Notes under the pieces: generated by a model
Database searches by the model: none
The model's input: only the letters and a program-made list of their open reading frames with translations
What the model was told of the DNA's origin: nothing
Shown: positions 37,179 through 42,038 of the stretch, in pieces
How positions within the stretch are numbered: the first letter of the stretch is position 1
Layout of the letters: each line of letters opens with the position of its first letter
Program-made: the position numbers and the translations under genes
Source: Thermopolyspora flexuosa
GTDB lineage: Bacteria; Actinomycetota; Actinomycetes; Streptosporangiales; Streptosporangiaceae
Length of the DNA: 64,000 bases
Direction of reading: 5' to 3'
Assembly (NCBI RefSeq): GCF_006716785.1
Contig: NZ_VFPQ01000002.1
Coordinates: 248,001 to 312,000, forward strand

Positions 37179-39446
37179 TCAGGCCAGGGGCGGCCGGCCG
37201 ACCAGCGCGTCGAGGCGGATGGGCAGGTCGCGCACGCGGATCCCGGTCGCGTGGTACACGGCGTTGGCGATCGCGGCGGCCGCGCCGACCGTGCCGACGC
37301 CCGCCAGGTGGCCGGCGGACGGCGGCTCGGGGCCGAGGCCGTCGCCCGGGACGAGGTGGGCCTCGACGTACGGGGCGTCGGCGAAGGTGGCGAGCAGGTA
37401 GTGGGACAGGTCCTGGTTGAGGAAGCCGCCCCACCGCTCGTCGATCTCGCCCTCCTCGAACAGGGTCATCGACAGGCCGAGCGTCATCGCCCCGGCGAAG
37501 AGGGCACGCAGCTCGTCCTCCTCGGCGGCGCCGCCGGCCGCGCCGCCGACGGTGAACACGCCGAGCAGCCGCGGCACCCGGATCTCGCCGGTGTCGGCGT
37601 TCACCCGCACCTCGGCGAACTGCGCGCCGTACACGTGCCGCCGGTCCGGGTCGTCGGCCCGCGCGCTCACCGCCACGGGCGTGCCCTCGGCGTGCCCGCC
37701 CGGCCGGCCGCCGCGCCCGTGCTCCGCCGCGCCGAGCAGCTCCAGCAGCGCCTCGCAGGCGCGCACCACGGGCATGCTCCACCGGACCACGTCCTCCGGC
37801 TCGTCGCCGCGTGCGGCGCCGCCCGGCGGCCCCGCCGCGCCGCCCTCGCCGCCCACCTCGATCTCCACCCGCTCCGGGGTGACGCCGAGCACGACCGCGG
37901 CGATCGTGGTGAGCGCGGCCCGCTCCTCGGGCCGCATGCGCGCGGCGGCGAGGCGCACCCGGTAGCGGCCGTCGTCGTCCCGCCACGCGGTCGCCTCCGG
38001 ACGCGGCTGCCGCGCCGGGTACGCCGAGACCGCCACCCCGGTGCCGACCAGCCGGCGCCCGTCCCACCGCACGCCCGGCGCCGGGTCGCGCCCCGCCCAG
38101 CCGAAGTGCTCGGCCCCGGTCCGCAGGCAGGCCGCGACGGCCGCGGACGCGGCGGTGCCGTACCCCTGCCGGTCCGCCCCCGGCAGGTTGCGCAGCCGCA
38201 GCTCGATCGGGTCGAGGCCGCAGGCGGCGGCGAGCTCGTCCATCGCCGACTCCAGCGCGAACGTGCCGGGGAACTCCCCGTACGTGCGCGACCACGACGG
38301 CGTCGGCACGTCGAGCGGCACGACCGTGTGCGTGCGGTACCGGAGCGGCACGTCGTAGACGAGCCGGGCCATGCCGGTCGCGGCCTCGGCCGCGGGGCCG
38401 CTCGCCGGGCCGGAGGACTCCGTGCCGCGACCCGGATCGGCGACCGTGGAGGTCTGCTCGACCACGTCGTGGCCGAGCGCGACGAGGCGGCCGCGGCCGT
38501 CCGCGCCGAGCCGTACCCGCTGCACGAGCGGCGTGCGGTAGCCGGTCACCGCGAACATCTGCCGCCGGGTGAGCGTGACCTTCACCGGCCGCCCGGTCAC
38601 CTGCGCCGCGATCGCGGCGAGCACGGTCTGCGGCCGGGCCTCGGGCGTGCTGCCGTACCCGACGCCGACGTGCGGCGTGATCACCCGCACCAGGCTCGGC
38701 GGCAGCGTGAACAGCTCGGCGAGGGTCTCCCGGACCGCGGTCGCGCCCGGGCAGGAGTCGTAGAGCACCAGGCCCCGCTCGTCCCAGACCGCCACGGTGC
38801 TGTGCGGCTCCATCGGGTTGTGGTGGTAGGCGGGGGTGGTGTAGGTGAGGTCGAGCCGCACGGCCGCCTCCCGCAGCGCCCGCTCCACCGCGTCGCGGCC
38901 GTCCTCCTCCGGTGCCTCCTCCCAGGTCCGGTACGCCCGCGGGTGGTCCTCGCGGAGCACCACGTCGTGCGGCTCGGGGGCGTAGTCGACGCGCACCCGG
39001 GCCGCGGCGTCGTACGCGGTCTCCAGCGTCTCGGCGACGACCGCGGCGACGAACTGCCCTCGGTAGGCGATCTTCGGCGACTGGAACAGCGCGAGGTCGG
39101 ACTCCTCGGGCACGCCCAGCCCGGGCGCGTTGCCGTGCCAGAGCACCGCGAGCATGCCGGGCATGGTGAGGATCGTCTCGGAGTCGACGTTGACCACCTC
39201 GCCGCGGGCGATCGTCGCCTGCACGGGTACGGCGTAGGCGAGCGCGGCGCCGGGGGAGTACTCGGCGGCGAACCTCGCCCGGCCGGTGACCTTGGCCCAC
39301 TCGTCACCGTCCCGCCGGTCGCGGTTCCGGCGGTCACCGTTCGCCCGGCCGCCGCCGTGGCGGCCCCCGTTCCACGGCGCGTCGTGCCACGGGTCGTCCC
39401 GGTGGCCCGACACGGCGGTCGCCTGGTCCGCGTACCGGTGGTCCAT
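37179..39446 (-). CDS. Molybdenum hydroxylase large subunit (YagR/PaoC-like), motifs degenerate
   Basis: The 755-residue protein belongs to the xanthine dehydrogenase/aldehyde oxidase family, YagR subgroup. The fold is complete: WAKVTGRARFAAEY, HHNPMEPHSTVAVWD, CPGATAVRETLAEL, YGEFPGTFALESAMDELA and the end block AAAIANAVYHATGIRVRDLPI. Several active-site motifs are changed. The GGGFGSK loop reads GVGYGST. The GTG(S/T)YT pterin-binding loop reads RPEERAA. The GEIG loop with the catalytic Glu reads AGVG. Loss of three cofactor or catalytic motifs predicts no normal hydroxylase activity. It overlaps the FAD subunit by 1 bp (TGATG). Confidence 0.88.
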   Translation of the reverse strand: MDHRYADQATAVSGHRDDPWHDAPWNGGRHGGGRANGDRRNRDRRDGDEWAKVTGRARFAAEYSPGAALAYAVPVQATIARGEVVNVDSETILTMPGMLAVLWHGNAPGLGVPEESDLALFQSPKIAYRGQFVAAVVAETLETAYDAAARVRVDYAPEPHDVVLREDHPRAYRTWEEAPEEDGRDAVERALREAAVRLDLTYTTPAYHHNPMEPHSTVAVWDERGLVLYDSCPGATAVRETLAELFTLPPSLVRVITPHVGVGYGSTPEARPQTVLAAIAAQVTGRPVKVTLTRRQMFAVTGYRTPLVQRVRLGADGRGRLVALGHDVVEQTSTVADPGRGTESSGPASGPAAEAATGMARLVYDVPLRYRTHTVVPLDVPTPSWSRTYGEFPGTFALESAMDELAAACGLDPIELRLRNLPGADRQGYGTAASAAVAACLRTGAEHFGWAGRDPAPGVRWDGRRLVGTGVAVSAYPARQPRPEATAWRDDDGRYRVRLAAARMRPEERAALTTIAAVVLGVTPERVEIEVGGEGGAAGPPGGAARGDEPEDVVRWSMPVVRACEALLELLGAAEHGRGGRPGGHAEGTPVAVSARADDPDRRHVYGAQFAEVRVNADTGEIRVPRLLGVFTVGGAAGGAAEEDELRALFAGAMTLGLSMTLFEEGEIDERWGGFLNQDLSHYLLATFADAPYVEAHLVPGDGLGPEPPSAGHLAGVGTVGAAAAIANAVYHATGIRVRDLPIRLDALVGRPPLA

Positions 39447-40432
39447 CAGCGTCCCTCCGTGGCGAGCTCGGTGAGCGTGCGGGTGAGCAGGTTGCGCACG
39501 AGCGGCACCTTGTAGGCGTTGTCGCGCAGCGGGCGGGCCCCGGCCGGCTCGGTCCGGGCCGCGCGGGCGAAGTTCTCCTCGGTGGCGTCCGCGCCGTACA
39601 GCGCCTCCTCCGCGCGCTCGGCCCGCCACGGTTTCGGCGCGACACCGCCGAACGCGACCCGGCACTCCCGCACCACCCCGCCGGTCACCTCGAGCACCAC
39701 CGCGACCGACACCACGGCGAACGCGAACGACGTGCGGTCGCACACCTTGCGGTAGCGGGAGCGCTCCGCGCCGGTGGGCGGCACCTCGATCCCGGTGATG
39801 AGGTCGGCGTGCTCGAGCACGGTGTCCCGCCGGGGATCGTCGCCGGGGTCCCGGTACAGCCCGGTGATCGGCAGCCGCCGCGGCCCGGCCGCGCCCTCGA
39901 CGCGCACCACCGCGTCGAGCGCGGCGAGCGCGACGGCGAGGTCGGACGGGTGGGTGGCGACGCACGACGGCGAGTACCCGACGATCGCCAGGTTGCGGTG
40001 CACGCCCTCCATCGCCGGGCAGCCGCTGCCGGGCTCCCGCTTGTTGCACGGCTTGCTGATGTCGCTGAAGTACGCGCACCGGGTGCGCTGCAGCAGGTTC
40101 CCGGCGACCGTGCCCATGTTCCTGATCTGCCCGGACCCGACGGACAGCGCGGCCTGCGCCAGCACCGGGTAGCGCCGCCGTACCCCGAGGTGGGTGGCGA
40201 GGTCCGCGGTGCGCACCGCCGCGCCGATCACCAGCCCGCCGTCCCCGGTCTCCTCGATGCGGTCGAACGGCAGCCGGCTCACGTCGACGAGCAGCTCCGG
40301 GGCGAGCACCCCGAGCCGCATCAGGTCGATGAGGTTGGTGCCGCCGCCGAGGTACATCGCCCCGGGCGTGTCGCGCACCGTGGCGAGGGCCGCGTCGATG
40401 TTCCACGGCCGCTCGTAGTCGAAGGGCCTCAC
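39446..40432 (-). CDS. FAD-binding subunit of molybdenum hydroxylase (YagS/PaoB-like)
   Basis: The 328-residue protein has the FAD-binding YLGGGTNLIDLM and GSGQIRNMGTVAGNLLQ motifs. Four cysteines in RCAYFSDISKPCNKREPGSGC and, later, YSPSCVATHPSD match the extra [4Fe-4S] cluster of the YagS/PaoB subgroup, so electrons can pass from the molybdenum centre to FAD. The motif residues look intact. It starts at ATG 40432 and is followed directly by the large-subunit gene. The small subunit gene lies 46 bp upstream, so the three form an operon. Confidence 0.93.
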   Translation of the reverse strand: MRPFDYERPWNIDAALATVRDTPGAMYLGGGTNLIDLMRLGVLAPELLVDVSRLPFDRIEETGDGGLVIGAAVRTADLATHLGVRRRYPVLAQAALSVGSGQIRNMGTVAGNLLQRTRCAYFSDISKPCNKREPGSGCPAMEGVHRNLAIVGYSPSCVATHPSDLAVALAALDAVVRVEGAAGPRRLPITGLYRDPGDDPRRDTVLEHADLITGIEVPPTGAERSRYRKVCDRTSFAFAVVSVAVVLEVTGGVVRECRVAFGGVAPKPWRAERAEEALYGADATEENFARAARTEPAGARPLRDNAYKVPLVRNLLTRTLTELATEGR

Positions 40433-40478
40433 CGCGACCGCCTCCGCGCGTGCGCCCGGTCCCGGGTACGGCGGGCCG

Positions 40479-41012
40479 TCACCGGGCCACCTCCGCGATC
40501 GCCACGGCGATGCGGCCGTAGCAGCCGCAGCGGCACAGGTTCCCGCTCATCCGCTCGCGGGTCTCGGCGGGGTCGAGGGCGGGCGGGGCGGACAGGTCGG
40601 GGGTGACCGCGCTCGGCATGCCCGCCTCCGCCTCGGCGAGCACCGCGACCGCGGCGCAGAGCTGGCCGGGGGCGCAGTAGCCGCACTGCACGGCGCGGTG
40701 CTCGACGAAGGCGCGCTGCAGCGGGTGCGGCCCGCCGTCGCCGGCGAGGCCCTCCACGGTGGTGACCTCGGCGCCGTCGACCGCCACGGTGAGGGTGAGG
40801 CAGGAGTACACGCGGCGGCCGCCGACGAGCACCGTGCAGGTGCCGCACTCGCCGTGGTCACAGCCCTTCTTCGCGCCGGTGAGGCCGAGCCGTTCCCGCA
40901 GCGTGTCGAGGAGCGTGGCCCGCGTGTCCACGCGGATGTGGTGCGGCACCCCGTTGACGGTCAGCCGGACCGTGCGGGTGCGCACCCGTGCGGAGTGGAG
41001 CTCGTCGGTCAC
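40479..41012 (-). CDS. [2Fe-2S] small subunit of molybdenum hydroxylase (YagT/PaoA-like)
   Basis: The 177-residue protein starts at GTG 41012 after GAGGG. All eight cysteine ligands are visible: KGCDHGECGTCTV with VYSCLT for the first [2Fe-2S] cluster, and VQCGYCAPGQ with LCRCGCYGRI for the second. YGRI is preceded by CGC rather than CGA or CGT, one extra cysteine. The family carries electrons from Moco to FAD. It is the first gene of the operon with the FAD and Mo subunits. No twin-arginine signal is visible, so the complex is probably cytoplasmic. Confidence 0.94.
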   Translation of the reverse strand: MTDELHSARVRTRTVRLTVNGVPHHIRVDTRATLLDTLRERLGLTGAKKGCDHGECGTCTVLVGGRRVYSCLTLTVAVDGAEVTTVEGLAGDGGPHPLQRAFVEHRAVQCGYCAPGQLCAAVAVLAEAEAGMPSAVTPDLSAPPALDPAETRERMSGNLCRCGCYGRIAVAIAEVAR

Positions 41013-41174
41013 GCAGCCCTCACTACCCCTGTCAGGTGGTTTATCCCAAAAATTGGCCACCTGCCCTAATTTCTGGCGGCGGCCCGCGTCGGGCCGGTGG
41101 GCACGGCGCCGGCCCCGCCGTACGCTGGCCGGAGAGCGGGCCGCGGAGGGCCGGACGACCACGGAGGTGGAGCC

Positions 41175-42038
41175 GTGCGCGAGACCCACGCGTGGATCTG
41201 CGCGACCTGCGGCAACCAGGCGGCGCCGAGCGAGCGGCCGCCCGGGCACTGCCGCATCTGCGAGGACGAACGGCAGTACGTCGGGCCCGAGGGGCAGCGG
41301 TGGACGACGCTGGCGGAGCTCGCCGCCGCGGGCCACCGCGGCGAGGTGCGCGAGGTCGAGCCCGGCCTGCTCGGCATCGGCGTGCGCCCCCAGGTCGCCA
41401 TCGGCCAGCGGGCGCTGGTGGTCGCCACCCCGGCCGGGCAGGTGCTGTGGGACGTGCCGGGCTTCGTCGACGCCGCGGCGATCGAGGCGGTCCGCGCGCG
41501 GGGTCCGCTGCTCGCGGTCACCGCCTCCCACCCGCACTTCTACGGCGTGGCCGTGGAGTGGAGCCGGGCCTTCGGCGGCGCGCCGATCCTCATCCCGGAG
41601 GCGGACGCCGAGTGGCTCATGCGCCCCGACCCGGCGGTGCGGCTGTGGCGCGGCCGGTACGAGATCGCCCCGGGCGTGACGCTGGTGCAGTGCGGCGGCC
41701 ACTTCCCCGGCAGCGCGGTCCTGCACTGGGCCGGCGGCGCGGACGGCCGCGGCGCGCTGCTCACCGGCGACACGATCACGGTGGTGCGGGACCGCCGGTA
41801 CGTCACGTTCATGCGCAGCTACCCCAATCAGATCCCGCTCCCGGAACGGGCGATCCGCCACATCCTCGACCGCCTGGAGCCGCTCGCCTTCGACCGGGTG
41901 TACGGCGGCTGGTGGGACAGCGTGATCCCGTCCGGCGCGAAGGCCGCGGTGTGGCGCTCGGCCGAGCGCTATATCCGGTGGGCCACCGGCGCGGCCGATC
42001 CCGCGAGCTACCTCGGCGACGGCGGCGATCCGGCCTAG
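41175..42038 (+). CDS. MBL-fold metallo-hydrolase with N-terminal zinc-ribbon
   Basis: The 287-residue protein starts at GTG 41175 after GGAGGTGGAG. The N terminus has a zinc ribbon, WICATCGNQ and CRICEDERQYVG. The metallo-beta-lactamase core follows: ASHPHFYGVAVEW in place of the usual HxHxDH, GGHFPGSAVLHW (HxxGS), and LLTGDTITVV (TGD). The metal ligands appear partly altered. Function in the family is unassigned hydrolase. It is divergent from the molybdenum hydroxylase operon across 162 bp, so it may share control with it. Confidence 0.85.
   Translation: MRETHAWICATCGNQAAPSERPPGHCRICEDERQYVGPEGQRWTTLAELAAAGHRGEVREVEPGLLGIGVRPQVAIGQRALVVATPAGQVLWDVPGFVDAAAIEAVRARGPLLAVTASHPHFYGVAVEWSRAFGGAPILIPEADAEWLMRPDPAVRLWRGRYEIAPGVTLVQCGGHFPGSAVLHWAGGADGRGALLTGDTITVVRDRRYVTFMRSYPNQIPLPERAIRHILDRLEPLAFDRVYGGWWDSVIPSGAKAAVWRSAERYIRWATGAADPASYLGDGGDPA

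Follow-up and report, generated by a model that had tools for sequence, protein, structure and literature searches.

In a 64,000-nucleotide stretch of the genome of Thermopolyspora flexuosa (contig NZ_VFPQ01000002.1, positions 248,001 to 312,000; hereafter the window), three adjacent genes on the minus strand, spanning positions 41012 to 37179, encode the iron-sulfur (FeS), flavin adenine dinucleotide (FAD) and large, formerly molybdenum-binding, subunits of a xanthine-oxidase-family molybdenum hydroxylase, whose large subunit has lost the segments that hold the molybdenum cofactor (Moco) together with the catalytic glutamate. Both the loss of hydroxylase chemistry and the retention of the operon by selection are well supported, and from these we infer its present function: the operon is probably a Moco-free pseudo-hydroxylase, in which the large subunit would act as the scaffold of a flavin/iron-sulfur electron-transfer complex. 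An earlier, sequence-only reading of the window had drawn the boundaries of the operon exactly and had pointed to degenerate motifs in the molybdenum subunit, an observation now borne out by alignment with Escherichia coli PaoC and ~85 homologs.

Pfam and NCBIfam profiles place the operon in the xanthine oxidase family, its large and FeS subunits coming closest to those of E. coli PaoABC, and the FeS-FAD-Mo order of the three genes, along with the family domains, is that of PaoABC-type systems. In a sequence comparison with PDB entries the large subunit matches PaoC best (5g5h_C, E = 1.3e-90); it falls short of the cut-off of the NCBIfam PaoC equivalog profile (400.8 versus 1180 bits), against which the canonical actinobacterial orthologs were left unscored. 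The E. coli enzyme (YagTSR; PDB 5g5g/5g5h), a periplasmic aldehyde oxidoreductase, shares with the window operon the gene order, the three subunits, the cluster ligands and the fold of the large subunit, but unlike it possesses the Moco loops, the catalytic Glu, a twin-arginine translocation (Tat) leader on the FeS subunit and paoD; we saw no such leader in the FeS protein of the window. The canonical Streptosporangiaceae orthologs (L040-L053, L101-L121) constitute an orthologous operon with ~45-56% identity across the large subunit and, in contrast to the window protein, all display the motifs GGGFG(S/A/G/C)K, (M/L)R(A/G)PGE, (D/E)(I/L)GTG and GE(I/V)G.

The large subunits of ~85 loci were extracted together with E. 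coli PaoC, aligned and read at the motifs. All six Moco segments and the catalytic Glu are replaced in the window protein (Table 1): the catalytic Glu692 of PaoC aligns without a gap to Gly716, and AAGGAAEEDELRAL stands opposite AAGRILNPKTARSQ of PaoC, the canonical form of this segment being AGRIINPKTARSQ and that of the congener, introduced below, TAGSAADADALRAR. The register of the alignment is certain because the whole protein is collinear with, and 50-56% identical to, its nearest canonical orthologs. The comparison with PaoC that the sequence-only reading had called for locates the canonical motifs nowhere else in the chain, a displacement that is ruled out by the single full-length, collinear match. 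The Gln that is replaced along with its neighbor at residues 232-233 corresponds to Q211 of PaoC, the counterpart of Gln767 of bovine xanthine oxidase, which contacts the apical oxo ligand. As a measure of how focused these changes are, we used the 227 columns conserved in at least 97% of 46 canonical orthologs. Both species of the genus have altered 56 of these near-invariant residues, as against a maximum of 22 and a median of 1 for any canonical ortholog treated alike. Within the Moco segments, which are the known loops of the family but whose limits were chosen after the alignment was seen, 27 of 39 such residues have changed, versus 29 of 174 outside (Fisher p = 3e-10). By these counts, the change in the large subunit is targeted to the Moco segments.

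Given that all pyranopterin and molybdenum-ligand segments and the catalytic Glu are gone, the sequence predicts that the large subunit very probably neither binds molybdopterin cytosine dinucleotide (MCD) nor hydroxylates. The equivalent Glu to Gln change is by itself sufficient to inactivate mouse AOX1 (PMC2671166), and with six loops and the base lost, the earlier suggestion that hydroxylation has disappeared is strongly supported. A working Moco enzyme that holds its cofactor by unusual residues could be accommodated by the preserved fold, by the retention of Arg387 of the MRAPG loop and ~70% of the near-invariant residues, and by the presence in the genome of other molybdenum hydroxylases and XdhC/CoxI proteins; nevertheless, the joint loss of the six cofactor segments, the Mo-site Gln and a Glu whose change is alone inactivating makes this very improbable.

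The same losses are present in the other genome of the genus that was examined, the metagenome-assembled genome (MAG) ZC4RG28, from thermophilic compost and described as Streptosporangiaceae (PMC8434746). The degenerate form is thus known from two species, one of them represented by a 78%-complete MAG, and from 2/2 genomes of the genus. The congener proteins are 74-79% (large), 85% (FeS) and 90% (FAD) identical to those of the window. The recurrence of the losses in this independent assembly at such divergence rules out assembly error and, as collinear canonical orthologs with 52-56% identity fix the register, we attach practically no weight to a sequencing, assembly or alignment artefact. Outside the genus, no homolog that was read shows motif loss, ~50 Streptosporangiaceae orthologs among them; at E <= 1e-100, 80 of 151 genomes of the family have a full-length relative, and all the relatives that were motif-read carry the catalytic Glu. 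The congener scores 1149 bits and the next relative 707; in the samples of relatives, family and order that were searched, with distant groups lying beyond the survey, the degenerate form has no closer relative than this besides the congener. The sequence-only reading had looked to shared substitutions in all orthologs under purifying selection as the mark of a new function: the selection is there, whereas the substitutions go no further than one genus, the orthologs read from other genera being canonical.

The genus (SH-like approximate likelihood ratio test, SH-aLRT, 100) is sister to the canonical locus L040 in the partner-subunit tree. With this topology fixed, the stem of the genus measures 0.82 substitutions per site for the large subunit versus 0.41 for the FAD and 0.42 for the FeS subunit, and hence the change took place mainly in the large subunit. 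These relationships make a single loss of Moco on the genus stem, with the sister lineages left intact and the gene kept as a protein since, the simplest history and one that we regard as highly probable. No closely related canonical copy is left in the genome, the next homolog being 36% identical. Both genomes do contain a paralogous PaoABC-type operon of canonical form, in which the motifs are intact and constraint is stronger (at C1:2797508 of G000, L064, in T. flexuosa; L068 in the congener), and the genus therefore still uses Moco.

The electron-transfer subunits present a different picture. All eight cysteines of the two 2Fe-2S clusters are intact in the FeS subunit when aligned with PaoA, and C119, C129, C138 and C157 of the FAD subunit, the ligands of the extra [4Fe-4S] cluster, align with the cysteines of the same numbers in PaoB; both sets are kept in both species, in agreement with what had been noticed in the window alone. 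Near-invariant changes common to the two species number 5 in the FeS and 8 in the FAD subunit. Each subunit has gained one cysteine (C232 in the large, C231 in the FAD and C164 in the FeS subunit) that is found in both species and in 0 of 41-46 canonical orthologs; C164 lies beside a 2Fe-2S ligand pair, and C232 adjoins the former Mo-site Gln. These cysteines, the replacement of the Mo-site Gln and the loss of the AGRI(N)PKTARSQ segment go beyond what the sequence-only reading had noticed. FeS residue 109 (codon 40688-40686), which precedes the CGYC motif of cluster I, is Gln in the window species and Gly in the congener. The Gln at this position contacts the pterin in xanthine oxidase; its loss in the congener is what would be expected once the pterin is gone.

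Since both species carry all the losses, their divergence postdates these, and a comparison of the two reports on selection after the loss. Under the GY94 model the pairwise ratio of nonsynonymous to synonymous rates (omega) is 0.183 for the large subunit (twice the log-likelihood difference, 2dlnL, from omega = 1 being 132.7), 0.079 for the FAD and 0.141 for the FeS subunit, as compared with 0.059, 0.079 and 0.092 for the corresponding subunits of the canonical paralog that these two genomes also encode. Because the G+C content of third codon positions is 98%, omega was refitted under four codon-frequency models, which gave 0.55 (equal; 2dlnL 22), 0.37 (F1x4), 0.18 (F3x4) and 0.17 (F61) for the large subunit, with 2dlnL ranging from 22 to 139. 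Differences between the species are most frequent at third codon positions (92, 84 and 143 for the three positions), the full-length large-subunit gene has no stop codon in either species, and its indels are in frame with the exception of one hypervariable patch, which restores the frame. The stretch from residue 498 to 531, in which the replaced loop III lies, is 94% identical between the species. The broken frame and neutral pattern of an ordinary pseudogene are thus absent, and the codon-level evidence gives good support to the view that purifying selection keeps the operon.

If the operon is a Moco-free pseudo-hydroxylase, the large subunit would be a structural part that holds the 2 x [2Fe-2S] and FAD/[4Fe-4S] subunits together without Moco, and the complex would be a flavin/iron-sulfur electron carrier or reductase with no substrate site at Mo. 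Electrons might, speculatively, pass in or out at two ends, FAD/[4Fe-4S] and the 2Fe-2S cluster that once faced Mo. We infer this arrangement only tentatively, at somewhat less than even odds. The assembly of such a trimer is physically plausible in the light of two precedents: an xdhC mutant yields xanthine dehydrogenase with Fe-S and FAD but no Moco (PMC2997495), and carbon monoxide (CO) dehydrogenase has been purified and crystallised without Mo-pyranopterin (1ffu; PMC9103625). In the related 4-hydroxybenzoyl-CoA reductase, according to its structure paper as cited in PMC3958847, electron flow is inverted in conjunction with the additional [4Fe-4S] cluster, and accordingly the FAD/[4Fe-4S] end could here either accept or donate electrons. 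The repurposed electron-transfer or binding module of the sequence-only reading fits the intact FAD and FeS subunits, but neither a partner nor a substrate nor a new centre was identified.

Several observations count against the scaffold interpretation: 1) Selection on the large subunit is ~3 times looser than on its canonical paralog (0.18 versus 0.06). 2) The large subunit varies at the N-terminus and in loop IV, which is also compatible with slow decay. 3) AlphaFold2 (AF2) models, computed from 35 sequences with the same rows for the window protein and canonical L040, reach a mean predicted local distance difference test score (pLDDT) and predicted TM-score (pTM) of 78.0 and 0.79 for the former versus 90.5 and 0.91 for the latter. 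4) When PaoD is missing, E. coli PaoABC is unstable and contains no MCD (PMC2997495); a Moco-free version would therefore need compensation and its assembly is not assured. 5) The degenerate form is restricted to two species. 6) No electron donor or acceptor of the complex was identified. Some of these features are what would be seen if the enzyme had become dispensable in the genus and the operon were a future pseudogene that is not yet broken, as are the tip branches of the large subunit, longer than those of its partners, and the Gly at FeS residue 109 of the congener, next to cluster I. Against such decay stand omega below 1 under every model, the open frames and the excess of third-position changes, near-normal constraint on the partner subunits, and the conservation of the upstream element and of the segment containing the replaced loop III, and we regard it as unlikely.

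In the AF2 model of the window protein, four regions have a pLDDT under 50, namely the N-terminus, residues 260-265 (the former loop I), residues 338-351 and the loop IV insert (534-551), and the first Foldseek match of the model is PaoC (5g5h_C, E = 1.5e-58, TM 0.72); as modelled, the PaoC fold is kept and two cofactor loops are unstructured. Predicted disorder of loops I and IV speaks against a former Moco pocket rebuilt for another cofactor, metal or ligand, perhaps via the new cysteines, to give a new catalyst. While the three cysteines common to both species and absent in all canonical orthologs, as well as the conservation of the replaced loop III, would be in keeping with this idea, there is no recognisable metal or nucleotide site, and no adjoining partner gene is linked to the operon outside the genus; we consider it rather improbable. 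A broader proposal, that of a Mo-independent redox machine in which the pocket was emptied or rebuilt, the redox chain kept, and the new cysteines support electron exit or thiol/metal chemistry, has in our estimation perhaps one chance in a handful.

Among known systems, NuoG of complex I is a Mo-independent relative of the dimethyl sulfoxide (DMSO)-reductase molybdoproteins (PMC6147048), and NuoG and the FdhF-like domain of StnC likewise are molybdoenzyme-type, non-catalytic subunits in Fe-S/flavin electron-transfer complexes (PMC6147048, PMC10482914). They differ in belonging to the DMSO-reductase family and in being ancient and widespread, and no homology to the window subunit is claimed. 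Of the attributes of a NuoG-like relict subunit, the loss and the constraint are documented here for the large subunit of a predicted complex. The CO dehydrogenase of Hydrogenophaga pseudoflava (1ffu), which belongs to the xanthine oxidase family, can be purified and crystallised without Mo-pyranopterin; its lack results from growth without Mo or with tungstate, cytidine nucleotides filling the site, whereas that of the window operon is genetic. A survey of molybdoproteins considered that the xanthine oxidase and DMSO reductase families might include Mo-independent members, but found no sequence feature by which to recognise them (PMC6147048). Our literature search, whose coverage excluded subscription journals, found no known Moco-free pseudoenzyme of the xanthine oxidase family. 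The operon is a clear, sequence-marked candidate for such a form, and its close intact relatives allow the loss to be placed on one branch and compared with intact sisters. It would illustrate how a subunit that depends on a cofactor can persist after that cofactor is lost, with NuoG as a parallel in another molybdoenzyme family. There is also a warning for annotation: with Pfam scores far in excess of the cut-offs of the Moco-binding domains, the gene would be labelled as encoding a molybdopterin-binding subunit.

Table 1. Features of the operon and replaced segments of its subunits (window coordinates).
Feature	Coordinates	Strand	Basis
2 x [2Fe-2S] subunit, PaoA-like, 177 aa, GTG start	40479..41012	-	Pfam Fer2 + Fer2_2
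FAD subunit with extra [4Fe-4S] cysteines, PaoB-like, 328 aa	39446..40432	-	Pfam FAD_binding_5 + CO_deh_flav_C
Large (former Mo) subunit, 755 aa, PaoC fold	37179..39446	-	Pfam Ald_Xan_dh_C, MoCoBD_1, MoCoBD_2
T232C + Q233P of large subunit, both species; Q at PaoC Q211 position, beside Mo site	38748..38753	-	alignment
Moco loop I: GGGFGSK (PaoC GGGFGGK) to GVGYGST; congener GVGYGGA	38646..38666	-	alignment
Moco loop II: MRAPGE to SRTYGE; congener SRTQGD	38274..38291	-	alignment
Moco loop III: DIGTGxxT (PaoC DIGTGSYT) to RMRPEERA, same in congener	37917..37940	-	alignment
Moco loop IV: GGS(M)G (PaoC GSGGQWG) to longer AARGDEPED-type loop; congener AAGGDEPED	37794..37838	-	alignment
AGRI(I/L)NPKTARSQ segment to AAGGAAEEDELRAL	37500..37541	-	alignment
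Moco loop V with catalytic base: KGIGEIG (PaoC KGVGELG) to GHLAGVG; congener DRLTGLG	37293..37313	-	alignment
R231C of FAD subunit (KVRDR to KVCDR), both species; R in 41/41 canonical orthologs	39740..39742	-	
A164C of FeS subunit (CRCGAY to CRCGCY), both species; A in 46/46 canonical orthologs	40521..40523	-	
62-bp A+T-rich upstream element	41013..41074	-	nearly identical in congener, DNA before diverges

Translational coupling of the FAD and large-subunit genes is likely preserved, as the stop codon of the former (TGA) and the start codon of the latter (ATG) overlap. The downstream neighbor of the operon codes for 6-phosphogluconate dehydrogenase; both neighbors are syntenic in the congener, such synteny being seen in no other genus, and no neighbor gene is conserved beside the operon outside the genus. 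We saw no XdhC/PaoD gene adjoining the operon, nor one recurring beside the canonical orthologs read. The 62-bp upstream element is a probable promoter/operator and could act in either direction, given the divergent gene that begins close by. A look for its core words in the upstream DNA of the canonical orthologs read found none. In the window species alone it contains a perfect inverted repeat, CAGGTGG-N17-CCACCTG, which is broken in the congener. A regulon defined by CAGGTGG-N14-20-CCACCTG was considered and rejected, the genome having two such sites only, no more than the reversed control. The divergent gene (41097-42038, plus strand), which is the upstream neighbor of the operon, encodes a protein that carries a CxxC...CxxC motif near its N-terminus and looks like a metallo-beta-lactamase; it has no Pfam match at 1e-3, is 91% identical in the congener, and has a 52% identical relative near the operon in Streptosporangium carneum (L102).

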